Shown here piece after piece: positions 9,562-31,772 of a stretch of 64,000 bases of DNA. The position numbers and the translations under genes are program-made. The first letter of the stretch is position 1, and each line of letters starts with the position of its first letter. The stretch lies in assembly GCF_041477585.1 (NCBI RefSeq), contig NZ_JBGNYA010000001.1:2232001-2296000 (forward strand). Reading direction: 5' to 3'. This DNA comes from Halobellus sp. MBLA0158 (GTDB lineage: Archaea > Halobacteriota > Halobacteria > Halobacteriales > Haloferacaceae). The notes beneath the pieces are model-generated. The model saw nothing but the letters and a program-made list of their open reading frames with translations. It had not been told where the DNA came from and searched no databases.

Positions 9562-11709
9562 TCAGTCCGCGAACTCGACGCCGGTGATCTCGAACCGCGC
9601 GCCGCCGTCGTCGCTCTCGGTCGCTTTGATCTGCCAGTCGTGGGCCGAGACCACCTGCGCGACGATGCTCAGCCCGAACCCGACGCCCTTCGAGGAGGTG
9701 GAGTAGCCGGTCTCGAACACCTTCTCGCGCTCGTCGGGCGGGATCCCCGGCCCGTCGTCTGCGACGTAGAAACCGTCGTCGAGGTCGCCGACCGTCACGG
9801 TGACGTCCTCGCCGCCGTGTTCGACCGCGTTGCGGATGAGGTTCTCCAGGAGTTGCTGGAGTCGCGACTGGTCCGCGCGGACGACCCGGTCTGTGCGGGA
9901 GTCGAGCGTCGCCGACCCCGTCTGGACGCTCTGCCAACTCCGGTCGAGCAGCGTCGAGAGGTCGACCGGCGAGCGGTCGGTGACGGGCTGGTCGCTCCGC
10001 GCCATCGTCAGGAGCTCGTCGATCAGCGTCTGCATTCTCTCGTGGGCGCGAGCGACGTGGGCGAGGTGTTCGCTGTCGCACTCGCGCATCCCGAGTTCGA
10101 GCCGGCCCGAGGCGACGTTCAGGGGATTCCGGAGGTCGTGGCTGACGACCGAGGCGAACTCTTCGAGCTGCTTTTCGCGCCGCTTCCGGTTCGAGATATC
10201 GCGGCTGATGCTGAGGATGGCGGTCTCGCCCTCGTAGGTGATGAGGCTCGAGCTGATCTCGACGGGGATCGTCTCGCCGTCTTTCGTCTCCCGGACGGTC
10301 TCGACCATCTGGATCTCGTCTTCCGGCATCGTCTCGATGAGCCGGGTGATCTCCGCGGGATCGGTCCCCGCGTCGATGTCGTGGGGGCGCATCGAGAGCA
10401 GCTCCTCGCGGGAGTAGCCGGTGCGTTCGACGGCCGCGTCGTTGACCGCGAGGAAGTTCATATCCGTGTCGATGACCCAGGCGGCGTCGTTCATCCCGTT
10501 GAACAGCTCCTCGTACTCGGCGCGGGCCTGTTCGAGCTCCCGCTCCCGGCGGCGGTACTCGGTGACGTCGTGGACGGCGCCTCTGAGGGACGTCACCGCG
10601 CCGTCGGCCGTCTTCGGCTCGCCGTGGAACTGGAGCCACCGGTGGTCGTCGCCGGCCGTCCGCGCTTCGACGTCGAACGGCTCGCCCGAGTCGAACGCCC
10701 GCTCGATGGCGCCTTCGACGCGGGCGCGGTCCGCATCCCGGAGGGCCTCAAGGACGTCCGACAGCGACGGGCTGTCTCCGGGGTCGAGAGCGAGGAGTTC
10801 AGAGAGGTGATCCGTCCAGGACAGTTCACGGGTCTCGGCGTCGATCTCCCAGCCGCCGACGCCCGCGAGCCGCTCGGTCTCGTCCAGCAGGTCCCGGATC
10901 CGCACGAGCTCCCGCTCGCGATCGCGGTGCTTCGTGATGTCCCGGGCGACGGCGACGACGCCCTCGATCGACCCGTCGACGTCGAGCGGCGTCAGCCGGT
11001 ACTCGACGATGGCCCGCCCGTGCTCGGGGAAGTCCGCCTCCACCTCCCCCAGCAGTTCGTCGCGCTCGCCGTCGAGGAGCTCCTGGTACGGATCGCCCTC
11101 CGAGACGGACCTGATGTGGGGGATGAGCCCGCTCATCTCCCCTTCGAGGGCCTCCCGGCTGGTCCCGTACCAGTCGGCCAGGTACTGATTCACCATCCGA
11201 AAGCGGCCCTCGGCGTCGTAGATGCACGCTGACTCGTGCATCGTGTTTATCATCCGCTCGTAGCTGCGGAGCTCACGGTTTCGCTCGGCCAGCGCGGCCT
11301 GCGACCGGTAGTGTTCGACGGCGTTCGCGATCCGGTTCGCCAGAACCGCGTACTGGTCCGTCCCCGGCTCTTTCTGGAGGTAGTCCGTCACGTCGGCCGA
11401 GATGGCCTTGCTCGCGATCTCCTCGGAGCCCTTGCCCGTAAAGAGGATGAAGGGCAGGTCGGGGTGGTCCTCGCGGACCGCTCGGAGCAGTTCGATCCCG
11501 TCGCGCTCCGGCATATCGTGGTCGGAGACGACGCAGTCGATCGCGTCCGGGTCGTCGTCGAGACGGGCGAGCGCCTCCCCCGGGGTCGTCACCGCCCGAA
11601 CGGACAGGCGGTCGTCGGCCCGTTGGAGAAACGTCGCCGCCATCTCGACGAAATCCGGATCGTCGTCGACGTGGAGCACCCGGATCTCGTCGGTCGCGAC
11701 GCCCATCAT
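9562..11709 (-). CDS. Hybrid sensor: receiver, three PAS domains, histidine kinase
   Basis: 715 residues, no membrane segments. The order is: receiver domain (about 8-125; acidic pair in HVDDDPDF, phosphoacceptor Asp in VVSDHDMPERDG, conserved Lys in LQKEPGTDQ), PAS domains at about 155-270, 280-390 and 395-510, HisKA with the phosphoacceptor His in SVVSHDLRNPLNV (about 525), and HATPase_c with the N box ENLIRNAVEHG, G1 DDGPGIP and G2 GFGLSIV. Soluble multi-PAS kinases of this type are abundant in Halobacteria and sense redox, light or ligands. No dedicated output regulator is adjacent. Confidence 0.92.
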   Translation of the reverse strand: MMGVATDEIRVLHVDDDPDFVEMAATFLQRADDRLSVRAVTTPGEALARLDDDPDAIDCVVSDHDMPERDGIELLRAVREDHPDLPFILFTGKGSEEIASKAISADVTDYLQKEPGTDQYAVLANRIANAVEHYRSQAALAERNRELRSYERMINTMHESACIYDAEGRFRMVNQYLADWYGTSREALEGEMSGLIPHIRSVSEGDPYQELLDGERDELLGEVEADFPEHGRAIVEYRLTPLDVDGSIEGVVAVARDITKHRDRERELVRIRDLLDETERLAGVGGWEIDAETRELSWTDHLSELLALDPGDSPSLSDVLEALRDADRARVEGAIERAFDSGEPFDVEARTAGDDHRWLQFHGEPKTADGAVTSLRGAVHDVTEYRRRERELEQARAEYEELFNGMNDAAWVIDTDMNFLAVNDAAVERTGYSREELLSMRPHDIDAGTDPAEITRLIETMPEDEIQMVETVRETKDGETIPVEISSSLITYEGETAILSISRDISNRKRREKQLEEFASVVSHDLRNPLNVASGRLELGMRECDSEHLAHVARAHERMQTLIDELLTMARSDQPVTDRSPVDLSTLLDRSWQSVQTGSATLDSRTDRVVRADQSRLQQLLENLIRNAVEHGGEDVTVTVGDLDDGFYVADDGPGIPPDEREKVFETGYSTSSKGVGFGLSIVAQVVSAHDWQIKATESDDGGARFEITGVEFAD

Positions 11710-12427: not shown

Positions 12428-12911
12428 AGGGGTGAGAGCCGCGCCGATTCGCGCGGGTGCCACGATATTGTACGCATCGAACAAAAACACTTTCGCGGGC
12501 GGCAGTCGGTTGCGCACGAGCGCGTGATTTGAATAATATATAAGATATAGTACTATAGTTTTTATCTTACTTATTTTACTGTATTGTATTAAGATTGTTT
12601 TTATATGCAATTCAGACCAGTATTAGAAATATTTAATCTGGTAGCTTCAAATTTCCATAACTATATTGTTCTGTTTCTATTTTCACATTCGAAGAACACT
12701 CGCTAACGCCTACCAAGCGTGAAGTCGATTTCTCGGCCCGAATTGATCGTCGAGGTAGAACGGACTGTTGCCATATTAAAATGTTTTTGACGGCCGATCC
12801 AGCTGTGGACGGATGCCGTGGCTGACCCCGGCAACGACCGAGATTCCCGTCGAAACGGACTCTGTCATACTTTCTCAAATTATAAGGTAGATGAACGCGA
12901 CAGTTTTGGAT
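12428..12911. other. AT-rich divergent intergenic spacer
   Basis: No gene seen in 484 bases. The stretch 12520-12680 is far more AT-rich than anything else in the left half of the window. It holds an imperfect stem-loop (ACCAG-T-ATTA at 12616-12625 against TAATCTGGT at 12634-12642, one bulged base). The TATA-like AATTATAA at 12878-12885 serves the downstream ligase gene. The composition break marks the left border of the catabolic island. Confidence 0.6.
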
Positions 12912-14474
12912 ATGCACCACAGTTCGACCGTCGAGGTGCCGGCAGTGAAGGATCTGTCCCGGATCGCGGCCGAGAACAACCCGGACAAGGTTGCGTTCGG
13001 GAACGGCACCGACGGCGAGACGCTGACCTGGCGGGAGTTCGACGAGCGAAGCAATCAGGCGGCGAACGCCTTCCAGCAGTATGCGGGACCGGGAGATCGC
13101 ATCGCCCTCCTCTGTGAGAACTCCCTCGAACACACGGTTCTCTGGAACGGCGGACTGAAGGCCGGATGTACGGTCTCGAATCTCCACATCCGGGCGTCGC
13201 CGAACACGCTCAAACACTGCATCGACTCGCTGCGGCCGAAGGTGCTCGTCGTCGACGAGGTGACGGCCGAGACCTACGAGGAGCGCCTGAAGGACAAGAT
13301 CACCTCGGACATCGACGTCGTCGTCAACACCGGATCCGCGACGACCGACTACGAGGTCGGGATGGAGCCGTTCCTCGACGGCCAGTCGAAGACCGAACCG
13401 GACGTCCGCATGCGCGAAGAAGATACCGCGGTCGTGATGTGGACCTCGGGTACCACCGGCGAGCCCAAGGGCTGGTGTCACACGAACCGCGGGCTCTACT
13501 TCCGCGCCAACGCCCTGGTCAGCGTCTACGAACTCAACCGCCCCGCGAGACAGCCCCACGTGTTCACTCCCTCCTTCGCCGCGTGGTACTCGGTGGTGTT
13601 GCCGGCGCTCGTCTCCGGGGCGACCACCTACTTCCTCAGCTCGTGGGACCCCGAAGACTACTTGGAGATGATCCAGGAGCACGAGCTCACCTCCGCCCTC
13701 TTGGTCCCGACGATGTGGCGCGAGATCCTCAACCTCGACGACCTCAACGACTACGACCTGAGTTCGCTCAACGCCATCATGTCCGCGGGCGAGGTCCTCG
13801 ACGCGACGACGCTGCGGCGGCTCAGAGAGAACATCTGTGGCGTCGTGAAGAACTCCTACGCCGCCACGGAGGCGTACGCGACCGTGATGGAAGACCCCGA
13901 ACTCACAGAAGAGCGCGTCGAGAGCGTCGGCAAGCCCGTCCCCGGGGTCGAGATCCGGATCATCGACGAGGACGGCACCTACGAGGACGTAAAGCCGACC
14001 GGCGAGGTCGGCGAGATCGCCGTCCGCGCGCCCGACTGTCCGGTCTGGGCGTGGGAGCGCACCGACAAGACCGAAGAGGTGTTCGAGGACGGCTGGTGGT
14101 ACTCCGGCGACCTCGGCTACCGCGACGAGGACGGCTTCATCTACCTGGAGGGCCGCACCGACCTGATGATCCTGTCCAAGGGGATCAAGGTGTACCCCTC
14201 GCCGATCGAAGAGCGGCTCAACGCCCATCCCGGCGTCAACGAGTCCGCAATCGTCGGCGTCGAAGACGAGGAGTACGGGGAGAAGGTGACCGCGTACGTC
14301 TACGCCTCCGATCCCGACCTGACCGCCGAGGAGCTCGACGAGTGGTGTTTGGAGAGCGACAACCTCGCGCGGATGGAACGACCGCGGGAGTACCACTTCG
14401 TCGACGAGTCGCTGCCGCGGACCTCCACCGGGAAGCTCGATCGGCTGAGCGCGAAGAACGAAGACCTCACGTAA
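12912..14474 (+). CDS. AMP-forming acyl-CoA ligase
   Basis: 520 residues from MHHSSTVEVPAVKD; this ATG is about 30 bases after the TATA-like AATTATAA, whereas an ATG seven codons upstream lies too close to it. ANL superfamily motifs appear in order: P-loop WTSGTTGEPKGW (about 178), the ATAEAYAT-like A5 region (SYAATEAYATV), YSGDLGYRDEDG (A7), GRTDLMILSKGIKVYP (A8) and the A10 lysine in RTSTGKLDRL. It activates a carboxylic acid through an acyl-AMP. Its position before the demethylase genes suggests an aromatic, cinnamic or methylthio/methoxy acid as substrate; this is inference. A T-rich terminator follows. Confidence 0.88.
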   Translation: MHHSSTVEVPAVKDLSRIAAENNPDKVAFGNGTDGETLTWREFDERSNQAANAFQQYAGPGDRIALLCENSLEHTVLWNGGLKAGCTVSNLHIRASPNTLKHCIDSLRPKVLVVDEVTAETYEERLKDKITSDIDVVVNTGSATTDYEVGMEPFLDGQSKTEPDVRMREEDTAVVMWTSGTTGEPKGWCHTNRGLYFRANALVSVYELNRPARQPHVFTPSFAAWYSVVLPALVSGATTYFLSSWDPEDYLEMIQEHELTSALLVPTMWREILNLDDLNDYDLSSLNAIMSAGEVLDATTLRRLRENICGVVKNSYAATEAYATVMEDPELTEERVESVGKPVPGVEIRIIDEDGTYEDVKPTGEVGEIAVRAPDCPVWAWERTDKTEEVFEDGWWYSGDLGYRDEDGFIYLEGRTDLMILSKGIKVYPSPIEERLNAHPGVNESAIVGVEDEEYGEKVTAYVYASDPDLTAEELDEWCLESDNLARMERPREYHFVDESLPRTSTGKLDRLSAKNEDLT

Positions 14475-14698: not shown

Positions 14699-16051
14699 AT
14701 GAGCGAAAGAGCGTGGTCCTTCAGCGATAGTATGGCAGAGGCCGTCGAAAAGGCCGGCAGTCCCGTCGAACTCACCCGTGACCTGGGCGTCGGACAGTTC
14801 ACCAAGGTCCCCGACGAGATCACAAACTGGATCGAAGAGCAGCGGTCCTGGCGCGAGAGCGTCGCCTTCGCCGACCAGTCGTATCACATGACCGACCACT
14901 ACGTCGAGGGCCCCGACGCGCTCGACCTCTACAAGGACTTCGCGGTCAACAGCTTCGAGAACACCGAGCCCGGCAAGGCGAAGCAGCTCGTCGTCGCCAA
15001 CCCCAACGGCAACTACATCGGCGACGCGATCTGGTTCCACCTCGAAGAGGACAAATTCCTGAGCGTCGGCAGCCGCCCCGCCCACAACTGGCTCCAGTAC
15101 CAGATCGAGACGGGCGACTACGACGTCGACGGACACATCCAGGGACGTCCGGTCCAGACCGGAGACGACCCGAACAACTTCCGCTTCCAGGTCCAGGGTC
15201 CGGAAGCGATCAAGGTGATGGAAGAGGCCGTCGACGACGAGATCCCCGACCTCGGCTTCTTCAACTTCGGCGACATCTCCATCGACGGCGTCGACGCCAA
15301 GCTCCTCCGCCACGGGATGGCCGGCGAGCCCGGCTTCGAGTTCTGGGGCGACTACGAGGACAGCGAGAAGGTCAAGGAGGCCGTGATGGAGGCCGGCGAG
15401 GAGTACGACATCAAGCACCTCGGCGCCGAGGCCTACCAGACGCCGAACGCGATCCTCGGCTGGATCCCGCTCGTCGTCCCGGCCATCTTCGAGGAAGGGA
15501 TGGAGGACTACCTCGAGTGGCTCGACGTCGGCGACGGCCTGCTCTCGATCGGCGGGAGCTTCGACTCCGACGACATCACCGACTACTACTTCACCCCGGT
15601 CGAACTCGGCTACGGCCACATCATCAACTTCGACCACGACTTCGTGGGCGCGGAGGCCCTCGAGGACGAGGTCGAAGACCCCGACCGGAAGAAGGTCACC
15701 CTCGAATGGGACGAAGACGACATGGTCGACATCTTCGCGTCGCTGTTCCGCGAGGGCGAGACCTACCAGTACATGGACTTCCCGCACCCGCGGTCGGCCG
15801 CGTGCCCGTACGACGAGGTCCTGAAGGACGGCGAGCACATCGGCGTCTCGACGGACAAGTCCTACATCTACAACGAGCGTGAGTTCCTCTCGCTCGCCGT
15901 CATCGACACCGAGTACGCCGAGCCCGGCACGGAAGTCACCCTGGTCTGGGGCGACCCCGAGGACAACGACAACAAGCGCGTCGAGCGCCACGCCCAGAAG
16001 GAAGTCACGGCGACGGTCGCGAACGCGCCGTACAGCGAAGACAAGCGGTAA
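14699..16051 (+). CDS. GcvT-fold folate-dependent demethylase, LigM/DesA-like (copy 1)
   Basis: 450 residues, cytosolic. The whole length matches the aminomethyltransferase (GcvT) fold in the long form of the vanillate/syringate O-demethylases LigM and DesA (about 470 residues); true GcvT and DMSP demethylase DmdA are nearer 370. Typical stretches are LRHGMAGEPGFEFWG (about 205) and TPVELGYGHIINFDHDFVGAEAL (about 300), the latter quoted here only by its ends. These enzymes move a methyl group from substrate to tetrahydrofolate. A close paralogue lies 3.4 kb downstream with metF beyond it, which supports a C1-transfer role over glycine cleavage. The promoter carries a strong palindrome. The actual methyl donor is not known. 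Confidence 0.82.
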   Translation: MSERAWSFSDSMAEAVEKAGSPVELTRDLGVGQFTKVPDEITNWIEEQRSWRESVAFADQSYHMTDHYVEGPDALDLYKDFAVNSFENTEPGKAKQLVVANPNGNYIGDAIWFHLEEDKFLSVGSRPAHNWLQYQIETGDYDVDGHIQGRPVQTGDDPNNFRFQVQGPEAIKVMEEAVDDEIPDLGFFNFGDISIDGVDAKLLRHGMAGEPGFEFWGDYEDSEKVKEAVMEAGEEYDIKHLGAEAYQTPNAILGWIPLVVPAIFEEGMEDYLEWLDVGDGLLSIGGSFDSDDITDYYFTPVELGYGHIINFDHDFVGAEALEDEVEDPDRKKVTLEWDEDDMVDIFASLFREGETYQYMDFPHPRSAACPYDEVLKDGEHIGVSTDKSYIYNEREFLSLAVIDTEYAEPGTEVTLVWGDPEDNDNKRVERHAQKEVTATVANAPYSEDKR

Positions 16052-16108
16052 TCCCCCACAGACTGACCAGTCCGGTCCGAACCTGACGTCTGTCCCACTC
16101 CCGGTTCG

Positions 16109-16137
16109 GGTTCCCACGTTTTCGGTTCCCTTTTCGA
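16109..16137 (+). terminator. T-tract terminator after demethylase copy 1
   Basis: T-runs ACGTTTTCGG and CCCTTTTCG in a spacer about 60 bases after the stop codon; likely an archaeal T-tract terminator. Confidence 0.4.
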
Positions 16138-16239
16138 CGAGTCGACGGCAACGAGCCTCGGCATCAACACGATCGAGGAGCCCTGGGCAGCCGATCGAAT
16201 CCAGAAACTGCAAAGTACCCCGGGGGGCTTCGGAGAGAT

Positions 16240-17196
16240 ATGACACGAGCCATCGTCGATCAGGACATCACACCCACCGAGCGGTTGCTCGACCACCTCG
16301 ACGACTCCTGGGAGGTGACGGTCGGCATCGACGGCGACGAGGAGACGCTCGAGACCGAACTGGCCGACTACGACGTGGCCTTCGTCACCTCTCGGATCCC
16401 GCTCACGAAGGCGGTCCTCGACAGCGCCTCGGACCTGTCGCTGATCGGCAAACTGGGCACCGGCATCGACTCGATCGATCTGGAGGCGGCCCGAGACAAC
16501 GGGATCACCGTCACCCACACGCCCGGCCACAACGCGCTCTCTGTGGCCGAACACGCCCTCGGACTCACGCTGGCGACCGCGCGACGACTGCCCGTCGCCG
16601 GCGAGATCATCGCCGAGGGGCGGTGGCGCGACGAGTACCCGCTCGGGACGCGGCTCTCGGGGTCGACCGTCGGCGTCGTCGGCTTCGGGAACGTCGGCAA
16701 GCGCGTGGGAATGCTCTTTTCGGGGTTCGACGTCGACGTCCTCGTCGCCGACCCCTACGTTCCGAGCATCGACGCCGAGCTCGCCCACGGGGAGCGGACG
16801 GACCTGGAGACGCTGCTCGCCGAGAGCGACGTCGTGATCCTCACCCCCGAACTCACAGACGAGACGCGCGGGCTGATCGGCGAGGCCGAACTCGATCTGA
16901 TGCGGTCCTCTGCCCTGCTGGTGAACGTCTCTCGGGGTCCCGTCGTGGAGGAGGCGGCCCTCGTCGACGCGCTCCGGAACGGTGACATCGCGGGCGCCGG
17001 CCTCGACGTCTTCGAGCACGAGCCCGTCCCGGCCGATTCGCCGCTGCAGGACCTGGACAACGCCGTGCTCACGCCGCACATCGCGGCGATGACCGCCGAG
17101 TGCCGCGCTGGGAACATCGACCAGCTCGCGGAGAACGTCACCCGACTCTTCGCGGGCGAGGACGTCCTCGACCGCTACGTCCCGGTCGATCCCTGA
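16240..17196 (+). CDS. D-isomer-specific 2-hydroxyacid dehydrogenase family protein
   Basis: 318 residues. The NAD-binding Rossmann motif GVVGFGNVGKRVG is at about residue 145. The family signature follows (LVNVSRGPVVEEAALVDAL, then DIAGAGLDVFEHEP), and the catalytic Arg, Glu and His lie in NVSRGPVV, FEHEPVP and LTPHIAAM. Members interconvert 2-oxo and D-2-hydroxy acids (phosphoglycerate, glyoxylate, lactate and others). Its location between the demethylase genes and the IclR gene suggests a catabolic 2-oxoacid or hydroxyacid intermediate. It has its own spacer upstream, so it may be transcribed alone. Confidence 0.85.
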   Translation: MTRAIVDQDITPTERLLDHLDDSWEVTVGIDGDEETLETELADYDVAFVTSRIPLTKAVLDSASDLSLIGKLGTGIDSIDLEAARDNGITVTHTPGHNALSVAEHALGLTLATARRLPVAGEIIAEGRWRDEYPLGTRLSGSTVGVVGFGNVGKRVGMLFSGFDVDVLVADPYVPSIDAELAHGERTDLETLLAESDVVILTPELTDETRGLIGEAELDLMRSSALLVNVSRGPVVEEAALVDALRNGDIAGAGLDVFEHEPVPADSPLQDLDNAVLTPHIAAMTAECRAGNIDQLAENVTRLFAGEDVLDRYVPVDP

Positions 17197-17990
17197 GGCC
17201 TGCCCCGGGACCCCCCCTGGGATACACCGGGAACCACGATCATATCATAATAAAATAACATCCGGTATGCTCGGTTTTTCTATGGATTCGTTTGTGAGCC
17301 TTCTCCCATAACGCGACGGAGTAGCAGCGCGGGGACGGAATCACAGCGGGGAACGAGCATCGAGATCACCTGAGAGGCCACCGTTGTGCATCACCGCTCG
17401 TCCTCGCAGACCATCTCGGGCGTGTACGATCGGCGCGGGCCGCGACAGCGTCGGATCGGTGGGGGATAACATATACTATTATTTACTTATCCGATATGCT
17501 CGATTTAGGTCAGTGCCGGACGACTCGCGGAACGGATGATCGACGGTATCGACGTGAGAATAACGTTCGTACACGCATTATCGATCCCGATTCGAAACTC
17601 CTGGAGCCGAGACTCACAGGAGTACGTGTGTTATCTCGACCGAATAGCGCGTACAGATGGGATATTTTGTTCTCGTATAACGAATTTATCTCCGAATATA
17701 TCGGTTCAATGGGTTCGGGCCCCGATAGCGGGTACGAACGACTGAGTCGCGAACGCGAGGTCGATCTATGGAGGCGGCGTATGGCGAACCCTTTGGGACG
17801 TGCCCCCGCACGACAACAAGCCACTGGAAAGAATCGAAGTGAGTCGCGCGAACCGATAACTTTCCTTATCATTTAGGATGGTTGTGTTCCCGGAGAGGCG
17901 AACCACCGTATCCTGGGCCTGAGACGGTCGAATCGGACGTTTCTCCGAACAAATCGGAAGGTTCACAATCATCGAAGACGTTGATGAGGT
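17197..17990. other. Long low-GC spacer without a recognisable gene
   Basis: About 790 bases between the 2-hydroxyacid dehydrogenase and IclR genes. GC content is lower than in the flanking genes, particularly at 17460-17880. The longest frame there (about 126 codons on the plus strand) has no codon bias of this genome, no acidic character and no recognisable motif. I see no inverted terminal repeats or transposase motifs. It may be decayed coding DNA or an imported regulatory spacer. Confidence 0.5.
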
Positions 17991-18752
17991 ATGCCTACGG
18001 ATCGGACATCGCTGACGACCGTCACGCGCGCGTTCGAGATCCTGGACCTGCTCTGGGAACTCGACGGGGCGGGGCCCTCGGAGCTAGCGACGCAGATGGA
18101 CCTCCCCGACAGCACCGTCTACGACTATCTGCGATCGCTGAGCGAGACGCGCTATGTGACCCGCGAGGACGGCGAGTACCGGCTGAGCTCGTACTTCCTC
18201 ACGATCGGCGGGAAGATGAAACACCGGAACCGCCTGTTCCAGGTGGCAAAGCCCGAGATGAAGCGCGTCGTCTCGGAGACCGACGAGCTCGTCGGCCTGA
18301 CGATCGAAAACGACGGCCGAGCGGTCGTGTACCACCAGGAAGAGGGCCGCCAAGCGCTGAGTCTCGGGACCTACACCGGCGCCGCGACGCCGATGCACAC
18401 GGTCGCGACGGGGAAAGCCATCCTCGCGTATCTGCCGGACGAGCGCGTCGAAGAGATCATCGCCGAGCGCGGGCTCGAACAGCGGACCGAGTACACGATC
18501 ACCGATCCCGACGAACTGAAAGCGGAACTGGAACAGATCCGCGAGGACGGCTACGCCGTCGACTGGAACGAGCAGGTCATCGGAATGGGGATGGCGGCGG
18601 TCCCGATTCTCGTCGAGGACGGCGTGCTCGGCTCCTTCGGCATCGTCGTCCCCACCGGTCGGATCCAGGACGAGTCCTACCAGGAGGAACTCCTCCAGAA
18701 GCTCCGGGAGATGGCAAACACCGTCACCATCAACTACCAGTACGGAAACTGA
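17991..18752 (+). CDS. IclR-family transcriptional regulator (1)
   Basis: 253 residues. N-terminal winged helix-turn-helix (about 8-70: RAFEILDLLWELDGAGPSEL, then DLPDSTVYDYLRSLSETRYV) and the IclR effector-binding GAF-like domain (about 85-250) with the usual HTVATGKAILAYLPDERV and AVDWNEQVIGMGMAAVPIL stretches. IclR proteins control catabolic operons for aromatic or organic acids. It sits between the demethylase genes and the MetF/transporter genes, so these are its probable targets. The palindrome at the demethylase promoter is a candidate site. Confidence 0.9.
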   Translation: MPTDRTSLTTVTRAFEILDLLWELDGAGPSELATQMDLPDSTVYDYLRSLSETRYVTREDGEYRLSSYFLTIGGKMKHRNRLFQVAKPEMKRVVSETDELVGLTIENDGRAVVYHQEEGRQALSLGTYTGAATPMHTVATGKAILAYLPDERVEEIIAERGLEQRTEYTITDPDELKAELEQIREDGYAVDWNEQVIGMGMAAVPILVEDGVLGSFGIVVPTGRIQDESYQEELLQKLREMANTVTINYQYGN

Positions 18753-18948
18753 CCGTGGGCCGGCCGTCCGTCGATTCGCGCCGTCGCTCGGGAGCGGTCC
18801 CGAGGTGACCCACAGCCCTCCACGCCGAGCGTGCGCGTCGGCTCCGTCTCTCCACGTAGCGAATATCTCGGATGTTAATGATATTTGACTGTTCGGTTAG
18901 GCTCCGACGGCGACAGAGCGGACTCGGCCGTTCCGGGTTCGGACAGAA

Positions 18949-19353
18949 TTACTCGAGGACCGATTCGAGGGGGTCGCGGACCTCGTCGGGGAGGGGCTCC
19001 GGCTTGTTGTCCGCCTTGGAGACACAGACGTGTTGTTCGCGGGCGCTGAATCGGGTGTTGCCGTCCGCGTCGGTGGCGGTGAATTCGAGTCCGAGGCTCT
19101 TGTTACCGACGTCGGGTTCGACGGAGATGGTGAGCACGTCGCCCACCTCGACGGGGCGCTCGAAGTCGGTGTCCATCGAGACGATCGGCAGGTGGACGCC
19201 GTACTCCTCCGGGATGTCCCAGTAGGCCACGCCGAGGTCGTCCATCAGTTCCTCGCCGGCGCGGTGCATCGCGTCGATCAGATTCGGATAGTAGGCGATA
19301 CCGTGGGGGTCGGCGTCACCCCAAGCGCACTTCCACTCGAACTCGAACATCAT
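18949..19353 (-). CDS. Hotdog-fold acyl-CoA thioesterase (4HBT family)
   Basis: 134 residues, typical for single hotdog thioesterases. The 4-hydroxybenzoyl-CoA thioesterase/YbgC signature is clear near the N-terminus: WGDADPHGIAYYPNLIDAMH, with the catalytic aspartate in DPHGI. It hydrolyses a CoA thioester, perhaps releasing an aromatic acid from CoA. It is divergent from the second demethylase gene and both share a 105-base promoter region; its TATA-like box (ACTTATG on this strand) sits about 25 bases before the start. The family also includes general house-cleaning thioesterases. Confidence 0.85.
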   Translation of the reverse strand: MMFEFEWKCAWGDADPHGIAYYPNLIDAMHRAGEELMDDLGVAYWDIPEEYGVHLPIVSMDTDFERPVEVGDVLTISVEPDVGNKSLGLEFTATDADGNTRFSAREQHVCVSKADNKPEPLPDEVRDPLESVLE

Positions 19354-19458
19354 CCCGATGTTTACCGCACCACATAAGTACCTTTGCTCACCGGCAGCAA
19401 ATTCGACGCGACAGACGCGAAGCTATTAATAGAGGACTTGACAACGTCTCCCGAACAG
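19354..19458. promoter_or_regulatory. Divergent promoter region, thioesterase / demethylase copy 2
   Basis: It contains a rightward TATA-like CTATTAATA (19423-19431), 32 bases before the demethylase ATG, and a leftward one (ATAAGT at about 19373-19378), about 25 bases before the thioesterase start. The compact divergent arrangement suggests joint control of the two genes. Confidence 0.5.
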
Positions 19459-20808
19459 ATGAGTACACGAAGCCTGGAAGACCTGCTCGGATCCGTCGAT
19501 TCGCCCGTCGAGATGCTGCGGTCGCAGGGCCGCGGCGCGTTCGGCTTCCCCAACGTTCCCGACGAACACACGACCTGGATCGAAGAACAGCGCGCGTGGC
19601 GCGAGACCTGCTCGTTCGCCGACCAGTCACACCACATGGTCGACTTCTGGGTCGAAGGCCCCGACGCGCTGGAACTGTTTTCGGACCTGGCGGTGAACGG
19701 CTTCGAGGGGTACGAACCCGGCACGGCCAAGCAGCTGGTGCTCGCGAACCCCGAGGGCTACTTCATCGGCGACGGGATCCTCTTTTACTTCGACGAGGAC
19801 GACTTCGCGCTCGTCGGTCCGCCGCAGGCGGCAAACTGGGTGCAGTTCCACGCCGAGACCGGCGACTACGACGTCGCGACCGAGCGCGACGAGACCTCCG
19901 GCGTTCGCGACGGGCCGCCGACGAACTACCGCTACCAGATCCAGGGGCCCAAGGCGCTCGATGTAATGCAGTCGGTGGCGGACGAGCCGCTCCCGGACCT
20001 CGGCTTCTTCAACTTCACCGACATCACGATCGACGGCCGCGAGGTGACGCTCCTGCGGCACGGGATGTCCGGCGAGGCCGGCTTCGAGTTCTGGGGTCCC
20101 TGGGAGGACGGCGAAGCGATCAAGCGGCTCGTCCTCGAGGCGGGCGAGGAACACGGCATCCGCCAGCTGGGCGGGATGAGCTACGGGAGCTCCGCGGTCG
20201 TCTCGGGCTGGCTCGGGATGCCGCTGCCCGCGGTCTACGACAGCGAGTCGATGCGCGACTACCGCGAGTGGCTCGACGCGCGAAGCGTCGAGGGCTACTA
20301 CTCCATCGCTGGCAGCCTTGACGCCGACGACGTCACCGACTACTACGTCACGCCCGTCGAGATCGGCTACGGTCGGCTGGTCGACCTCGACCACGACTTC
20401 GTCGGGCGGGAGGCGATCGCCGCGGAGCTCGACGACCCCGACCGGACGCTGGTGACCCTGGAGTGGGACGACGACGACGTGATCGACGTGTTCGGGTCGC
20501 TGTTCCGCGACGGCGAGACGAAGCGCTTCCTCCAGCTGCCGATCCCGTGGCGCTCGACGTCCCACCACGACCGCATCGAGAAGGACGGCGAACTCGTCGG
20601 GACGTCGCGGATGGGCGCCTACACCTACAACGAGCGGACGATGCTTTCCCTCGCCGTCCTCAACGTCGACCTCGCCGAGCCCGGCACGGAGGTGACGGTC
20701 GTCTGGGGCGAGCCCGACGGCTCGGCGAACCCCGCGGTCGAGCGCCACGAGTCGACCGAGATCCGGGCGACGGTCGCGCCGGTCCCGTACACGGCCGACA
20801 ATCGGTGA
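19459..20808 (+). CDS. GcvT-fold folate-dependent demethylase, LigM/DesA-like (copy 2)
   Basis: 449 residues from MSTRSLEDLLGSVDSP, an ATG placed 32 bases after a clear TATA-like box; an in-frame start 25 codons earlier would include that box and is rejected. It aligns end to end with copy 1, roughly half the residues being identical (for example WIEEQRAWRE, YVEGPDAL-like WVEGPDAL, LGFFNFTDITIDG, LRHGMSGEAGFEFWG, VTPVEIGYG). It probably transfers a methyl group from a second, related substrate to tetrahydrofolate, as DesA and LigM do for syringate and vanillate. The metF gene follows in the same direction 180 bases downstream. Confidence 0.82.
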   Translation: MSTRSLEDLLGSVDSPVEMLRSQGRGAFGFPNVPDEHTTWIEEQRAWRETCSFADQSHHMVDFWVEGPDALELFSDLAVNGFEGYEPGTAKQLVLANPEGYFIGDGILFYFDEDDFALVGPPQAANWVQFHAETGDYDVATERDETSGVRDGPPTNYRYQIQGPKALDVMQSVADEPLPDLGFFNFTDITIDGREVTLLRHGMSGEAGFEFWGPWEDGEAIKRLVLEAGEEHGIRQLGGMSYGSSAVVSGWLGMPLPAVYDSESMRDYREWLDARSVEGYYSIAGSLDADDVTDYYVTPVEIGYGRLVDLDHDFVGREAIAAELDDPDRTLVTLEWDDDDVIDVFGSLFRDGETKRFLQLPIPWRSTSHHDRIEKDGELVGTSRMGAYTYNERTMLSLAVLNVDLAEPGTEVTVVWGEPDGSANPAVERHESTEIRATVAPVPYTADNR

Positions 20809-20912
20809 GCGGTACGCGATAGGCGGTTCGCGGGCCGATCGGGACCGCCCGCGCCGGGCCTCGCGCGGATAGAGAGCAAATTTTATGCCGGCCCTGCGCC
20901 AAGAGAGCATAG

Positions 20913-20978
20913 ATGAGCGCTCACACAGCGTATCGTCCGCTCGGAACGCCGGCGACGGCGACCGGGCTCACACCCTAA
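20913..20978 (+). CDS. Possible 21-residue leader ORF before metF
   Basis: Short frame beginning MSAHTAYRPLG. Its ATG is about 32 bases after the TATA-like AAATTTTATG, making it the first start codon on the metF mRNA, and it ends ten bases before the metF ATG. Translation is not proven. Confidence 0.3.
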   Translation: MSAHTAYRPLGTPATATGLTP

Positions 20979-20988
20979 TTACCCACAC

Positions 20989-21843
20989 ATGGCTTCCCAA
21001 GGACTCTCCGCGTCTTCGACGCGTACGACCGCCGAATCGCTGCTCGAAAACCCCCGGTTCGAGCTGATGCCGTTCGACAGCTTCGACGACGAGATCGAAC
21101 ACCTCCCCGACGGCGCGACCATCACGATCACGGCCTCGCCGCAGTTGGAACTGGAGGCGACCATCGAGGCCGCAGAGCGCGCCGCCCAGGAGGGCTACGA
21201 GGTCGTCCCGCACGTCTCCGCGCGATACGTCCGCGGCCCCGACCACCTGGCTGAGATCTGCGAGCGCCTCAAGGCCGTCGGCATCGAGGACATCTTCGTG
21301 CCGGGCGGCGACCGCGAGGAGCCGATCGGCGAGTTCGAGTCCGCCTACGACATGCTCGTCGCGCTCGACGACCTCGACTACGAGTTCGAGGAGATCGGCA
21401 TCACGGGCTATCCCGAGGGCCACGACTTCCTCTCGGACGAGACGCTGGCGGAGGCGATGGACAAGAAGGCGCCGTACGCGACCTACATCGCCACGCAGCT
21501 GTGTTACGACCCCGAGGCGGTGCTCGAGTGGATCGAGGAGATCCGCGACCGCGGCGTCGACCTCCCGATCGAGGTCGGCATCCCCGGCGTGATGAAGTAC
21601 GAGAAGCTCCTGAGCATCTCCCAGAAGGTCGGCGTCGGCGACTCCGTGAAGTTCCTCCGCAAGACTTCGGGCATCGTGGGGTTCATCAAGCAGTTCATCG
21701 GCTCGCGCGGCCGGTACCGACCCGACGAGCTCGTCGACGGCCTCGCCCCGCACGCCGACGAGTACGGCATCCGCGGGCTCCACATCTACACCTTCAATCA
21801 GGTCCCCGACTCCGAGGAGTGGCGGCAGAGCCGTCTCAACTGA
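20989..21843 (+). CDS. metF: Methylenetetrahydrofolate reductase family protein
   Basis: 284 residues, the usual length for MetF. The TIM-barrel motifs PHVSARYVRG, IFVPGGDREEPIGEF and IGITGYPEGHDF are typical of the family (in known MetF the acidic residue near the first strand and the GGD loop contact folate and FAD). It interconverts methylene- and methyl-tetrahydrofolate. Next to two LigM-like demethylases it most likely oxidises the methyl-THF they produce, as in bacterial ligM-metF clusters, rather than serving methionine synthesis. The ATG at MASQGLSAS lies after a 75-base leader that contains a small frame. Confidence 0.88.
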   Translation: MASQGLSASSTRTTAESLLENPRFELMPFDSFDDEIEHLPDGATITITASPQLELEATIEAAERAAQEGYEVVPHVSARYVRGPDHLAEICERLKAVGIEDIFVPGGDREEPIGEFESAYDMLVALDDLDYEFEEIGITGYPEGHDFLSDETLAEAMDKKAPYATYIATQLCYDPEAVLEWIEEIRDRGVDLPIEVGIPGVMKYEKLLSISQKVGVGDSVKFLRKTSGIVGFIKQFIGSRGRYRPDELVDGLAPHADEYGIRGLHIYTFNQVPDSEEWRQSRLN

Positions 21844-21986: not shown

Positions 21987-22082
21987 ATGGTCGAACACAT
22001 TTCCGCAGACACACCGCGCGTGGGTCCGGAACGGCGGCCGGGGGCGTCCGTCGGACCGAGGAGGAACGATGTTGTCGGTTGA
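21987..22082 (+). CDS. Possible 31-residue leader ORF overlapping livG
   Basis: Frame beginning MVEHISADTPRVG, with its stop codon 11 bases inside livG (in another frame). It contains the AGGAGG that would serve as the livG ribosome binding site, so ribosomes finishing here could re-initiate at livG. Confidence 0.3.
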   Translation: MVEHISADTPRVGPERRPGASVGPRRNDVVG

Positions 22083-22818
22083 GCGAGGCGAGCCCGTGCT
22101 CTCGATCGAGGGGCTCACCAAGAAGTTCGACTCGGTGGTCGCCGTCGAGGACGTGAGCTTCGAGCTCCGGGCCGGGGAGATCCACGGTCTCATCGGGCCG
22201 AACGGCGCCGGCAAGACGACTACGGTCAACCTCGTCACCGGCGAACTGGAACCGACGAGCGGGAGCGTCCGCTTCAAGGACGACGACCTCGTCGGGCGCC
22301 CGCCCTCGGACATCGCCCGCCTCGGGATCGGCCGGTCGTTCCAGGTCGTCCAGTACTTCCCCGAGATGACGGTGCGGAAGCACCTGCACCTGGCGATCCG
22401 GGACCCCTCGAAGACCGTCCGGAGCGTGGTCGACGCCGACCCCGAAGACACAGCGCGGATCGAAGAGATCGCCGAGCGCGTCCACCTGAGCGAGCGGCTC
22501 GACACGGTGGCGAAGAACCTCTCGCACGGCGAGAAACGCTTCCTCGACATCGGCGTCGTCCTGGGGATGGACTCGGAGGTGATCCTCTTCGACGAGCCCG
22601 CGGCGGGGCTGAACACCTCCGAGACCGAGGAGCTAGAGGAGATCATCGAGGACCTCCGCGGCGACTACACCATCCTGATCATCGAACACGACATCGACCT
22701 CGTGCGGCGGATCACAGACCGGATCACGGTCCTCCACAACGGGAGCGTGCTCGCGACGGGGACGCCCGAGGAGATCGTCAGCAACGAGGACGTAAAGGAG
22801 GTGTACCTCGGTGAGTGA
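22069..22818 (+). CDS. livG: Branched-chain-type ABC transporter ATP-binding protein LivG
   Basis: 249 residues. Walker A GPNGAGKTTT (about 44), the ABC signature in the LivG-type form LSHGEKRFLDIG, Walker B VILFDEPAAGLN and the switch histidine in IIEHDIDLV. An AGGAGG four bases before the ATG supports this start. It energises uptake with LivF, LivH and LivM; the solute-binding protein is encoded at 28.1 kb. In this context the cargo is probably a carboxylic or aromatic acid rather than leucine, since this transporter class serves both. Confidence 0.92.
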   Translation: MLSVERGEPVLSIEGLTKKFDSVVAVEDVSFELRAGEIHGLIGPNGAGKTTTVNLVTGELEPTSGSVRFKDDDLVGRPPSDIARLGIGRSFQVVQYFPEMTVRKHLHLAIRDPSKTVRSVVDADPEDTARIEEIAERVHLSERLDTVAKNLSHGEKRFLDIGVVLGMDSEVILFDEPAAGLNTSETEELEEIIEDLRGDYTILIIEHDIDLVRRITDRITVLHNGSVLATGTPEEIVSNEDVKEVYLGE

Positions 22819-23521
22819 CATCCTGACGGTGGAGAACCTCGACGCGTTCTACGGCGAGAGCCAGGTGCTCTTCGACGTCTCGCTGTCGGTCGACGAGAAC
22901 GGCGTCGTCGGCATCTTCGGCCGGAACGGGATGGGCAAGACCACGATCCTCGAGAGCATCGTCAACCGTATCGACAGGAAGACCGGGACCGTCCGCTTCC
23001 GCGACCGCGACATCTCCGGGCTGGCCCCCCACGAGATCATCCGCGACAAGATCGCGTACGTGCCGGAGGACCGCGAGATCTACACCGCCCTGACGGTCCG
23101 CGAGAACCTCGAACTCGCGACGCCGAAGGGGCTCTCGGAGGCCGAACAGGAAGAGCGCATCGCGAACGTCTTCGACCGCTTCGAGCGGCTCGACGAGCGC
23201 TCGGCCCAGCTCGGCGGGACCCTCTCGGGCGGCGAACAGCAGATGCTCGCGATCGGCCGCGGGCTCGTCACCGACCCCGACCTCCTGCTCCTCGACGAGC
23301 CGACGGAGGGGCTCGCGCCCATCATCGTCGACGAGGTGGTCGAGGTGCTCGACGACCTCGTGACGCAGAACCGGGCGGTCCTGCTCGTCGAGCAGAACAT
23401 CACGCGGACGCTGCCGCTCATCGACCGCGGGTACATCATCGAATCCGGTCGCATCGTCGCCGATGGCGACAACGAGGAGCTCGGCGACGAGGAGCTCCAC
23501 GAGGAGTACCTCACGGTCTGA
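22811..23521 (+). CDS. livF: Branched-chain-type ABC transporter ATP-binding protein LivF
   Basis: 236 residues, GTG start, overlapping the end of livG by eight bases, so the two are co-translated. Walker A GRNGMGKTT, signature LSGGEQQMLAIGRGL, Walker B LLLLDEPTEGLAP and the C-terminal IIESGRIVADGDNEEL region identify the LivF subfamily. It forms the second nucleotide-binding subunit of the Liv-type transporter. Confidence 0.93.
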   Translation: MSDILTVENLDAFYGESQVLFDVSLSVDENGVVGIFGRNGMGKTTILESIVNRIDRKTGTVRFRDRDISGLAPHEIIRDKIAYVPEDREIYTALTVRENLELATPKGLSEAEQEERIANVFDRFERLDERSAQLGGTLSGGEQQMLAIGRGLVTDPDLLLLDEPTEGLAPIIVDEVVEVLDDLVTQNRAVLLVEQNITRTLPLIDRGYIIESGRIVADGDNEELGDEELHEEYLTV

Positions 23522-23633
23522 GCGGCGCCGCGAGACGCGGCGTTCACGCGCCGTTGGTTTCGGTTCGCTGACGGGTGCGTCTCGCCACAAGAAGATATAA
23601 TAGGCAGTGGCGTAACCATCCGGCTACCGACGA

Positions 23634-23714
23634 ATGATCATAAAAGATCCGAAAGCAGGAACCGGACGCGGGACGGGCGCTGGACTGGACAGCACCGTGA
23701 CCCGCGGGCGGTGA
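23634..23714 (+). CDS. Possible 26-residue leader ORF before livH
   Basis: Frame beginning MIIKDPKAGTGRG, the first ATG after the TATA-like GATATAATAGG (about 36 bases). Its stop overlaps an in-frame GTG of livH and ends six bases before the preferred livH ATG. It may couple translation. Confidence 0.3.
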   Translation: MIIKDPKAGTGRGTGAGLDSTVTRGR

Positions 23715-23719
23715 ACACG

Positions 23720-24607
23720 ATGGTCGAAACGCTGTTTCTGACGCCGAACGACTTCGTCACCTACCTCCTCAACGGCATCAGCCGGGGCATGATCCTGTTC
23801 CTCGTCGCCAGCGGGCTGACGCTGATCTTCGGACTCATCGGCCTCATCAACTTCGCGCACGGGGCGATGGTCACGCTCGGCGGCTATCTCACCTACTACA
23901 TCACGGGCGCGACCGGGAGCTTCTGGATCGGGATCGTCTCGGGGATTCTGATCGTCTCGCTCCTGGGGCTCGTCCTCGAACGGACGATCCTGCATCACCT
24001 CTACGAGGAGCCGCTCTTGGGATTCCTCGGGACCTTCGGCATCGGCTTGGTGATCGAGGAGCTGATCGGCTTCCAGTTCGGGGACCAGTCGCGGAGCCTG
24101 ACCTCGCCGTTCCCGGGGACGGTCGACCTGCTCGGGGTCTCGTACCCCACCCACCGGCTGTTCGTCATCGTCGTCGGCGTCGCCGTCGCGCTCGCCGTCG
24201 GCGCGCTCTTGGCGAAGACGCGGTTCGGCCTGGAGATCCACGCGACGGCGAACGCATCGGAGACCGCCGAGATCCTCGGGGTCGACTCCAGTAAGGTGTA
24301 CACGCTGACGTTCGTGCTCGGGTCGGCCCTCGCGGCCGCCGCGGGCGGGCTGACGGCGCCGATCACGTCGCTGACGCCCGGCGTCGGGATGACGTACATG
24401 CTGCTCGCGTTCCTCGTCATCATCGTCGGCGGGATGGGGAGCTTCAAGGGCTCGTTCCTGGTCAGCCTGATCGTCGGCCAGATCATCGCGTTCGGATGGC
24501 TGGCGCTCCAACCGACCTACGTCGAGATCAGCATCTTCGTCGCGGCGATGGTGTTCATCCTGTACAAACCGCGTGGCTTCTTCGGGAAACCGGAGGTGTT
24601 CGAATGA
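23720..24607 (+). CDS. livH: Branched-chain-type ABC transporter permease LivH
   Basis: 295 residues with about eight transmembrane segments. The family motif INFAHGAMVTLGGYLTYY is near the N-terminus and the inner-face loop ASETAEILGVDSSKVYTLTF is the ATPase-contact region. The ATG reading MVETLFLTP is chosen because GGCGGTGA, a good Shine-Dalgarno match, lies five bases before it; an in-frame GTG three codons upstream is the alternative. It has its own promoter after livF, so the permease genes form a second transcript of the same system. The stop overlaps livM by four bases. Confidence 0.9.
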   Translation: MVETLFLTPNDFVTYLLNGISRGMILFLVASGLTLIFGLIGLINFAHGAMVTLGGYLTYYITGATGSFWIGIVSGILIVSLLGLVLERTILHHLYEEPLLGFLGTFGIGLVIEELIGFQFGDQSRSLTSPFPGTVDLLGVSYPTHRLFVIVVGVAVALAVGALLAKTRFGLEIHATANASETAEILGVDSSKVYTLTFVLGSALAAAAGGLTAPITSLTPGVGMTYMLLAFLVIIVGGMGSFKGSFLVSLIVGQIIAFGWLALQPTYVEISIFVAAMVFILYKPRGFFGKPEVFE

Positions 24608-25572
24608 GCGTCGCCATCGACTCCGCCCGCCGGTACCTCAGCGAAGAGCGGTACCGCTGGGTCGGGCTGCTGTTCGTGATCGGCCTGCTCTTCCTGCCGA
24701 TGGGCGTCGAGAACTACATGGTCGGCCTGATCACGAAGGCCATCATCTTCGGCCTGTTCGCCATCTCGGTCGACATCGCGCTCGGCTACACGGGGCTGAT
24801 CACGCTCGCGCCGGCCGCCTTCTTCGGCATCGGCGCGTACTCCATCGCGAAGCTCGTGGTCGACTACGACGCCTCCTACTGGCTCGGCTTCCCGACCGCG
24901 ATCGTCCTTGCGGCGACGATCGCCTTCCTCATCGGCTACGCCCCGATCAAGCGGCGGATCGGCGAGGTGTACTTCGTGCTGTTCACGATGGCGTTCGGCG
25001 TCATCGTCCACGACTTCACGTTCGTCACGACGTCGTTCACCGGCGGCTCGAACGGCCTGGCGTACGTGTCGCCGCCGGAGGTGTTCGGCATCAACCTCGC
25101 GGAGACGCTGCCGTTCTACTACTTCTCGCTCATCGTCGTCGGCGCGCTCGTGGTCGGGCTCTACCTGCTCCTCCGCTCGGACTACGGGAGCATCCTCCAC
25201 GCGTCGCGGCAGAACGAGCTCCGGATGCGGTACCTCGGCTACGACACCGACCGCGAGAAGCTGCTGGCGTGGATCATCTCCGCGGTCATCTCGGCGGTCG
25301 CCGGGGCGATCTACGTCGGCACCGTCGGCGTCGCCTCCCCGTCGCTGATGGAGTTCGCGCTCACCGGCGAGGTGATCATCTGGGTCGTCGTCGGCGGCAC
25401 CGGCACCTTCGTCGGCCCCTTCATCGCGGCGTTCCTCCTGACGCTCCTGGAGGACTACCTCGGCGGCGTCTGGTCGGAGGGCTACCTCATCATCCTCGGG
25501 GTGCTCTTCGTCGCGTTCATCTTCCTCCTGCCCGAGGGCGTGATGGGCCGGATTCAGGACCGCGAGGACTGA
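24604..25572 (+). CDS. livM: Branched-chain-type ABC transporter permease LivM
   Basis: 322 residues, highly hydrophobic. Family stretches include SVDIALGYTGLITLAPAAFFG-type region near residue 60 (quoted by its ends) and LRMRYLGYDTDREKLLAWIIS, the coupling loop. The start overlaps the livH stop (ATGA). With LivH it forms the membrane channel for the imported acid. A T-rich spacer (TCGGTTTCGGCGTTTTCG) follows the stop and may terminate the transcript. Confidence 0.9.
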   Translation: MSVAIDSARRYLSEERYRWVGLLFVIGLLFLPMGVENYMVGLITKAIIFGLFAISVDIALGYTGLITLAPAAFFGIGAYSIAKLVVDYDASYWLGFPTAIVLAATIAFLIGYAPIKRRIGEVYFVLFTMAFGVIVHDFTFVTTSFTGGSNGLAYVSPPEVFGINLAETLPFYYFSLIVVGALVVGLYLLLRSDYGSILHASRQNELRMRYLGYDTDREKLLAWIISAVISAVAGAIYVGTVGVASPSLMEFALTGEVIIWVVVGGTGTFVGPFIAAFLLTLLEDYLGGVWSEGYLIILGVLFVAFIFLLPEGVMGRIQDRED

Positions 25573-26923: not shown

Positions 26924-27025
26924 GAAGCGAGCCCCCGCCGAGGGCGCTCGCGCGACGCTCGCGACCGCACGAGGAGGCCGCACTGTCGAATGAATTATTA
27001 TGGACGACGCGAGAGGTCGTGGTGT

Positions 27026-27958: not shown

Positions 27959-28078
27959 ACAGTCCTCGCGTTCGCGGTGGCCTCTGCGAACGGCGCTCCG
28001 CTCGGTTCCGGATCGAATATATCGGGAATTAACATCCAAATCTATTTAAGTCTCACCACCTACTTGCCAACCGTTGCC

Positions 28079-30488: not shown

Positions 30489-30491
30489 TGG

Positions 30492-31640: not shown

Positions 31641-31772
31641 AGTGCGTGCCGTGCGTACTGGGGTCAACCGCAGGCCGCACAATAAGTATATCGCACCTTC
31701 GTCTATGATAGATTTCCAACTCGATCGTCCCGGCGGCAAAATTTAAATAAACATAAATTAACGATTGGAACG

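Follow-up and report, generated by a model that had tools for sequence, protein, structure and literature searches.

Within a 64,000-nucleotide stretch of the Halobellus sp. MBLA0158 genome (3.29 Mb on two contigs; G000 in our genome set), spanning C1:2232001-2296000 and hereafter called the window, we analyzed a gene cluster organized around two proteins, A and B, that resemble the O-demethylases LigM and DesA. The original prediction for this stretch had described a folate-dependent demethylation module at 14699-21843, consisting of two long-form LigM/DesA-like paralogues, roughly half identical, together with metF and an acyl-coenzyme A (acyl-CoA) ligase. All of these genes were recovered (450 and 449 residues for the paralogues, with 54% identity between them), and the module is real, but the interval is only part of a larger functional unit. 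The interval also encodes a D-2-hydroxyacid dehydrogenase, an IclR regulator and a 4HBT thioesterase that had gone unmentioned. We consider it probable that the whole cluster serves aerobic, tetrahydrofolate (THF)-dependent O-demethylation of methoxylated aromatic compounds followed by extradiol ring cleavage. The genes of the cluster and its immediate flank are:

12891-14474, plus strand: acyl-CoA (AMP-binding) ligase, 527 aa, upstream of A and just outside the interval (PF00501, E 6.5e-71)
14699-16051, plus strand: demethylase A, LigM/DesA-type, 450 aa (NF047633 471 bits, NF047885 415 bits)
16240-17196, plus strand: D-2-hydroxyacid dehydrogenase, 318 aa (PF02826, E 1.3e-55)
17991-18752, plus strand: IclR-family regulator (PF01614, E 3.9e-37), matching the PcaR/PcaU/PobR subfamily model TIGR02431 at 132 bits, below its cut-off of 285
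18949-19353, minus strand: 4HBT-type acyl-CoA thioesterase, 134 aa (PF13279, E 1.5e-12)
19459-20808, plus strand: demethylase B, LigM/DesA-type, 449 aa (NF047633 523 bits, NF047885 462 bits)
20989-21843, plus strand: MetF-like 5,10-methylene-THF reductase, 284 aa (PF02219, E 2e-13)
22069-25572, plus strand: Liv-type ATP-binding cassette (ABC) transporter genes resembling LivG, LivF, LivH and LivM, assigned by eye and from annotated Halobellus counterparts (open reading frames 22069-22818, 22811-23521, 23711-24607 and 24496-25572)
25661-26026, plus strand: small VOC-fold protein, 121 aa (PF00903)
26138-26923, plus strand: HpcH/HpaI-type aldolase, 261 aa (PF03328, E 1.5e-32; HpaI-family matches in the PDB)
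26990-27958, plus strand: type I extradiol dioxygenase, catechol 2,3-dioxygenase-like, 322 aa (TIGR03211 252 bits, cut-off 320)
27977-29389, plus strand: ABC-type substrate-binding protein, Liv/Urt-like (UrtA profile 78 bits, below cut-off)
29523-31739, minus strand: 2-oxoacid dehydrogenase E1 beta and alpha (TIGR03181 and NF006667, both below cut-off)
31838-32926, plus strand: PF04909 amidohydrolase-fold protein (PF04909, E 2e-38)

The third-position GC content and acidic composition of A, B, MetF and the ligase are consistent with real genes; the reading frame of B has an alternative TTG start at 19384, which would give a protein of 474 aa. Close relatives of the cluster proteins are found on Halobellus, Halosolutus and Halostagnicola plasmids, and the proteins are acidic, so that the cluster reads as haloarchaeal.

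Profile scores, fold matching and a tree (the tree without DmdA) place A and B in the LigM/DesA family, as had been predicted, and far from GcvT, the sarcosine/dimethylglycine oxidases and DmdA. The NCBIfam DesA (NF047633) and LigM (NF047885) models give the scores listed above, compared with 78 (A) and 89 (B) bits for GcvT. A sequence search of the PDB returns LigM at the top (E 1e-104 for A, 8e-118 for B) with GcvT next near 1e-20; both proteins are 43% identical to LigM, and 13 haloarchaeal rows span 37-45%. The predicted model of B is of moderate confidence (mean predicted local distance difference test score, pLDDT, 70.8), and a Foldseek search with it fills ranks 1-16 with LigM chains (template modelling score 0.63-0.68, root-mean-square deviation ~7, top identity 42%), with GcvT-type structures from rank 17. 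Demethylation of dimethylsulfoniopropionate (DMSP) by a DmdA-like module was the chief alternative offered by the original prediction, and a shared superfamily and a saline habitat would suit it; it becomes hardly credible against DmdA profile scores of 55 (A) and 44 (B) bits, below the 410-bit cut-off of PRK12486 (NF009133), versus 471 and 523 bits for DesA, and with DmdA appearing only at structure rank 25 with 14% identity.

The residues of the active site were compared in an alignment of 34 haloarchaeal, 5 DesA and 32 other bacterial rows, using LigM numbering. E215 and N81 are conserved in 34/34 haloarchaeal rows and H60, Y247 and W256 in 32/34, and A and B retain all five of these residues, which we take to form the functional core of LigM, Y247 being presumably catalytic. 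R122, which we assume to bind the substrate carboxylate, is arginine in 5/5 DesA and 25/32 other bacterial rows and in 0/34 haloarchaeal ones. LigM Y29 is kept in neither A nor B (it is N in 5/5 DesA rows), and Y31 is F in both. Since the five core residues are conserved while R122 is lost, the catalytic frame seems to be retained and the substrate end to differ. The LigM/DesA gene logic first proposed is supported for family and context, but vanillate and syringate remain guesses as substrates because Arg122 is missing from every haloarchaeal row.

Two trees were built. The first (IQ-TREE) contains 78 rows, 71 of LigM/DesA type and 7 of GcvT/DMGDH type, with three partial rows omitted and the bacterial rows taken for the most part from loci that rank nearest to LigM. 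Placement of A and B inside GcvT or sarcosine-oxidase-like clades, which the original prediction had named as the result that would count against it, was not obtained: the two types split at 100/100, on long outgroup branches. The idea that A and B are ordinary glycine-cleavage T-protein or sarcosine/dimethylglycine oxidase paralogues draws on GCV_T being the sole Pfam match of each at E 0.001 and on the public annotation of haloarchaeal plasmid demethylases as aminomethyltransferase family or hypothetical protein, but given this split, the presence of other, weakly matching GcvT-like genes in the source genome, and the lack of gcvH or gcvP among the ten proteins scanned around A and B, we give it next to no credence.

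Within the LigM/DesA-type rows of the first tree, A groups with haloarchaeal rows in a clade of 13 and B in a haloarchaeal clade of four (G000, G349, G352 and G381), each at 100/99; B-type proteins also occur on plasmids of Halobellus and Halosolutus. All 37 bacterial rows fall into a single clade (100/96) with A and B outside it. Haloarchaeal rows are not one clade here, the bacterial clade nesting among their lineages, and L007 and L041 form the deepest branch. The second tree, unrooted and without an outgroup, was computed by a quick method with bacterial sampling widened by plasmid and Pseudomonadota rows; it omits the divergent haloarchaeal L006, L007, L033 and L041, three partial rows and seven bacterial LigM-type rows, and separates 35 haloarchaeal from 39 bacterial rows by a single branch with a Shimodaira-Hasegawa-like approximate likelihood ratio test value of 97. 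Neither tree places A or B within the bacterial LigM or DesA clade. With the long branches left out, haloarchaeal and sampled bacterial proteins part at one branch, so the A/B pair duplicated independently of LigM and DesA; both trees agree on this. The assignment of A to LigM and B to DesA was accordingly ruled out, as the pair lies outside the sampled bacterial LigM/DesA clade and scores below both equivalog cut-offs. BrdA, SesA, Dmt and DmdA sequences stand outside the trees.

DesA-like proteins (E 1e-60 or better) occur in 17/392 genomes of the order and 10/95 genera; four candidates were scored per genome, so the copy numbers per genome are lower bounds. The DesA cut-off is exceeded in 0/392 haloarchaeal genomes and in 5/15 bacterial ones. 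In the source genome there are seven DesA-like genes of full length; contig 2 holds one C-terminal piece (L016 9216-9926), perhaps a decayed copy. The five full-length paralogues other than A and B lie at L011 9769-11106, L012 ~10291-11667, L013 9015-10379, L014 9525-10928 and L015 9457-10797; two of them adjoin PF04909-matching genes and IclR regulators, and one sits between two genes that by eye resemble acyl-CoA ligases.

To place the cluster in context, we analyzed 20 neighbourhoods of DesA-like genes, a subset of the copies, from the 16 other DesA-positive haloarchaeal genomes. Genes were called from composition, some stretches end at contig ends, and presence thresholds were of our own choosing. 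Nine neighbourhoods (in G352, G349, G381, G170, G129, G165, G318, G117 and G093) combine an A-type demethylase with MetF, ligase, thioesterase, extradiol dioxygenase and HpaI aldolase (9/9 each), in differing gene orders; the dioxygenase of L065, L066 and L070 and the aldolase of L066 and L070 were counted from extension loci, and the G117 aldolase from a matching named plasmid record. The 2-hydroxyacid dehydrogenase and the VOC protein are each present in 7/9 clusters, and with the source genome included, ligase and thioesterase are present in all ten. The cluster is therefore found in 10/392 haloarchaeal genomes; as these span six genera in five families, it does not represent a single recent clone, even if the genomes are not independent of one another. 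A is the core demethylase of the cluster, and B an accessory second copy.

The picture is similar in named plasmid records. A Halobellus limi plasmid has its genes in the order of the window, and the stretch contains neither PurU nor genes of folate synthesis; the Halosolutus gelatinilyticus plasmid cluster includes FolD, PabA, PabB and FolP, and the Halostagnicola larsenii cluster includes MetF, PurU, FolD, PabA/B and FolP. On Halobellus limi plasmid 2, six places match B, and at one locus (L236, 127429-146778) a DesA-like gene adjoins genes annotated as VOC, aldolase and VOC. Five loci of a single genus (L078, L079, L080, L083 and L084) show another arrangement, in which a DesA-like gene is accompanied by an ABC uptake system and a HAD-type hydrolase, without MetF and in four of the five with a FilR1-type regulator; this neighbourhood type probably has a different function.

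The aromatic-catabolic setting proposed at the outset is supported by the ring-cleavage dioxygenase, which lies in the cluster and is conserved across genera. Its score of 252 bits against TIGR03211 is accompanied by 210 bits against HpaD (cut-off 321), and its stretches RIDHVQL, LHHIAYKV and HRIEF align with solved extradiol (catechol 2,3-) dioxygenases. These stretches hold the two-His-one-Glu metal site of type I extradiol dioxygenases, with the residues that we take to be its ligands. Dioxygenase matches at 1e-70 occur in 21/392 genomes, but those with at least 60% identity are present in each of the ten cluster genomes (G000 among them) and nowhere else, the remaining matches reaching 50% or less.

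This restriction bears on the possibility that the THF-dependent demethylation acts on something other than an aromatic, namely a methyl ether, thioether or N-methyl compound (for example an osmolyte or methylated sugar acid), with the dioxygenase nearby by chance. Sugar-acid metabolism also employs aldolases of the HpaI type (GarL and related profiles) and D-2-hydroxyacid dehydrogenases, in Rhizobium a homologue is paired with MetF amid genes of carbohydrate-ABC type, and the loss of Arg122 would suit such a substrate. Set against the dioxygenase confined to the ten cluster genomes, the second Halobellus plasmid repeating a DesA-like gene beside a size-matched VOC protein and an aldolase (from annotation only), and two bacterial plasmid loci carrying a homologue together with extradiol dioxygenase genes, we judge this explanation improbable.

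The best solved relatives of the ligase, among many, are FadD5 and feruloyl-CoA synthetase. Homologues of the substrate-binding protein are present in L065 and L066. The 2-oxoacid dehydrogenase E1 genes, which adjoin the cluster also in L228 and L214, may have a role in the pathway of the cluster. The PF04909 protein is a possible pathway member, with homologues beside the cluster in three relatives (L213, L227 and L228). Its best PDB matches are 8sm7, 8sm6 and 6m1w, which we assume to include the metal-dependent oxygenase AibH1H2, and it might itself be an oxygenase. Roles as a decarboxylase or oxalomesaconate hydratase found no support for it; it is nearer to these chains than to those of ACMSD, LigW and oxalomesaconate hydratase. 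A further PF04909 protein, from L065, matches nothing in the PDB at E 0.001. Separately, a phosphoenolpyruvate carboxykinase gene lies inside two clusters (L068 3773-5395 and L069 3981-5492, with Pfam run on the L069 copy), which would be consistent with oxaloacetate being formed in ring cleavage.

The predicted pairing with MetF is supported. The best PDB match of MetF is 7xg9 (134.6 bits), which we take to be the MetF enzyme of Sphingobium sp. SYK-6; other methylenetetrahydrofolate reductases (MTHFRs) are listed at 47.2 bits or less. The MTHFR subfamily exemplified by SYK-6 is reported to favour methyl-THF oxidation, and the SYK-6 enzyme itself to have coevolved with a LigM-type demethylase (PMC13001107). 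When LigM replaced VanAB in Pseudomonas putida, growth on vanillate is described as requiring MetF, LigH and a host mutation (PMC12997858), so a THF-draining gene set is expected alongside a demethylase. This MetF type is present in 16/17 DesA-positive haloarchaeal genomes, the exception (G369) being 82% complete. In bacteria, 70 LigM-type loci longer than 10 kb, scored with thresholds of our own choosing, have MetF at most 3 kb from the LigM-type gene in 39 cases and contain PurU in 28.

Relatives' clusters add genes of folate recycling and synthesis: PurU formyl-THF deformylase in 7/9, PabB in 6/9, FolC-FolP in 3/9, and FolD in 3/9 inside the stretch retrieved, with two further cases (G381 and G318) in which it lies at the edge. 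MptA is found in two of the nine, and PabA is also among the folate genes of several. Folate, proposed from the start as the one-carbon acceptor, is for this reason the likely one. PurU as a co-occurrence marker was rejected, because a PurU/PurN-level match exists in 366/392 genomes and only an in-cluster PurU is informative. In the source genome, a FolD copy lies at 2110 kb. A second one-carbon/aromatic block, G000:C1:2319387-2358972 (L230, L231, L017 and L232), at most 70 kb beyond the window end, holds a second FolD at 2319 kb, a homologue of PabB at 2321 kb, another copy of the extradiol dioxygenase (60% identity) at 2331.6 kb, FolC-FolP at 2335 kb, a second MetF at 2358 kb and two large flavin adenine dinucleotide (FAD)/GcvT-like fusion proteins that appear dimethylglycine-oxidase-like by eye.

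MetF, present in nine clusters and in the window, points to the transfer of a methyl and not a methylene group. Its presence also makes it very unlikely that A and B are demethylenases that use folate to open a methylenedioxy bridge and form methylene-THF directly, as such enzymes would presumably need no MetF. The THF-dependent relatives BrdA and SesA, described as GcvT-like or LigM-like, do act on aromatic natural products (PMC5547118), and the Halosolutus cluster is without MetF in the stretch fetched, which would fit a demethylenase.

For the demethylation of methoxylated aromatics that we favour, observed family membership, core residues, a conserved neighbourhood and co-occurrence with one dioxygenase are the basis, from which the reaction, the direction of MetF, the step order and the substrate are predicted. 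The ABC importer would take up a methoxylated aromatic compound, and the CoA ligase/thioesterase pair would handle an acyl-CoA stage. A, in some strains also B, would transfer the O-methyl group to THF, giving a phenol and 5-methyl-THF, which MetF would oxidize to 5,10-methylene-THF. FolD, and in most relatives PurU, would carry the one-carbon unit on to formyl-THF and formate with release of THF. The extradiol dioxygenase would open the exposed catechol, and the HpaI-type aldolase would split the ring fragment into pyruvate-type fragments or central metabolites.

The ligase and thioesterase of all ten clusters, together with the loss of R122, leave room for an acyl-CoA substrate. In a variant of the pathway that we regard as unlikely, the haloarchaeal enzymes would demethylate aromatic CoA thioesters (e.g. 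of the vanilloyl-CoA type) rather than free acids: the ligase would load the substrate, the Arg122-less demethylase would take its uncharged acyl end, and the thioesterase would free the dihydroxy acid for ring cleavage. We know of no bacterial counterpart to such a route, and if it were true it would represent a new substrate class for THF-dependent O-demethylases.

Several observations weigh against THF-dependent demethylation of methoxylated aromatics as the function of the cluster. Neither A nor B reaches the curated cut-offs of DesA (NF047633, 800 bits) or LigM (NF047885, 580 bits), and the arginine at position 122 is gone. Eleven of the 20 neighbourhoods, some cut by contig ends, lack MetF, ligase, thioesterase, dioxygenase and aldolase alike; no MetF was found in the 29 kb fetched of the Halosolutus gelatinilyticus plasmid cluster or in the 19 kb fetched of L236, the second Halobellus plasmid locus. 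MetF alone was rejected as a marker because it is unspecific: the type occurs in 99/392 haloarchaeal genomes, 83 of them without a DesA-like match, and the second MetF of the source genome lies near the large FAD/GcvT-like fusion proteins. The source genome has no close PurU (best match E 2e-25), and the window has no FolD, FolC-FolP or PabB homologue. Folate synthesis is no regular partner in bacteria, given FolD in 4/70 LigM-type loci and FolC/FolP and PabB in 0/70 each. On a Rhizobium plasmid MetF is paired with a homologue with no aromatic gene nearby, so the LigM/DesA-type family is not bound to aromatics. Finally, a complete ring-fission pathway is not readable from the genes, and neither are the steps between dioxygenase and aldolase.

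Outside the haloarchaea, a search with B against 200 Pseudomonadota finds a homologue at 1e-70 in 5, including the genome used as centre. A LigM-type gene also sits on a contig whose title assigns it to a Klebsiella pneumoniae metagenome bin (L129, CAMDML010000031.1), possibly a binning error. The closest described parallel to the cluster is Sphingobium sp. SYK-6, which shares the demethylase family, an adjacent MetF, two demethylases and downstream extradiol ring cleavage, and whose ligM-metF-ligH operon is reported (PMC6888825). In contrast to SYK-6, the host here is archaeal, A and B duplicated independently of LigM and DesA, Arg122 is lost, and the haloarchaeal clusters have PurU (7/9; LigH was not searched for), a ligase and thioesterase (10/10) and a VOC-type dioxygenase. 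Rhodococcus opacus pRop44186_a and Novosphingobium pentaromativorans pLA3 likewise carry DesA-like, MetF, PurU and FolD genes, some folate-synthesis genes and extradiol dioxygenase genes; they differ in being bacterial and in having a class III extradiol dioxygenase, and are considered here from annotation alone.

In archaea, Mto methoxydotrophy is anaerobic and uses a corrinoid protein with tetrahydromethanopterin as the probable acceptor. Such corrinoid-based demethylation of methoxylated aromatics is reported for Methermicoccus and Archaeoglobus (PMC8359953); the haloarchaeal cluster differs from it in its predicted THF acceptor and predicted O2-dependent ring cleavage. The dicamba demethylases Dmt, Dmt50 and Dmt06 are described as THF-dependent and acting on aromatic ethers (PMC9404685). 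Like BrdA and SesA, they are compared with A and B by description rather than by sequence, and they differ in substrate and, in the case of the demethylenases, in product too.

Elsewhere in the window, two similar proteins (45192-46280 and 56236-57333) share an N-terminal stretch that is nearly the same in both (TDGLPV.PPT.ERVEEMLRGIDRPRDDVVGRLGNN); for the first, no NCBIfam profile matches at 1e-10.

The 2019 eLignin database review describes five halophilic archaeal isolates that grow on aromatics, and the passage on them lists benzoic, cinnamic, phenylpropanoic and 4-hydroxybenzoic acids and phenol as substrates, naming no methoxylated one (PMC6486533). Among the matches listed from the open-licence PubMed Central literature, none concerned THF-dependent aromatic demethylation in haloarchaea or other archaea, which speaks only weakly for its absence. 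Demethylation of lignin-type aromatics by archaea is known via corrinoid systems, and a folate-based, aerobic haloarchaeal version would be a new variant of LigM/DesA chemistry. It would account for a patchily distributed group of genes that currently carry the annotation aminomethyltransferase or hypothetical protein, and would offer salt-tolerant O-demethylases. If this reading is true, folate-based demethylation chemistry has crossed, or predates, the boundary between archaea and bacteria, and haloarchaea would be able to draw carbon from the plant debris of saline waters.

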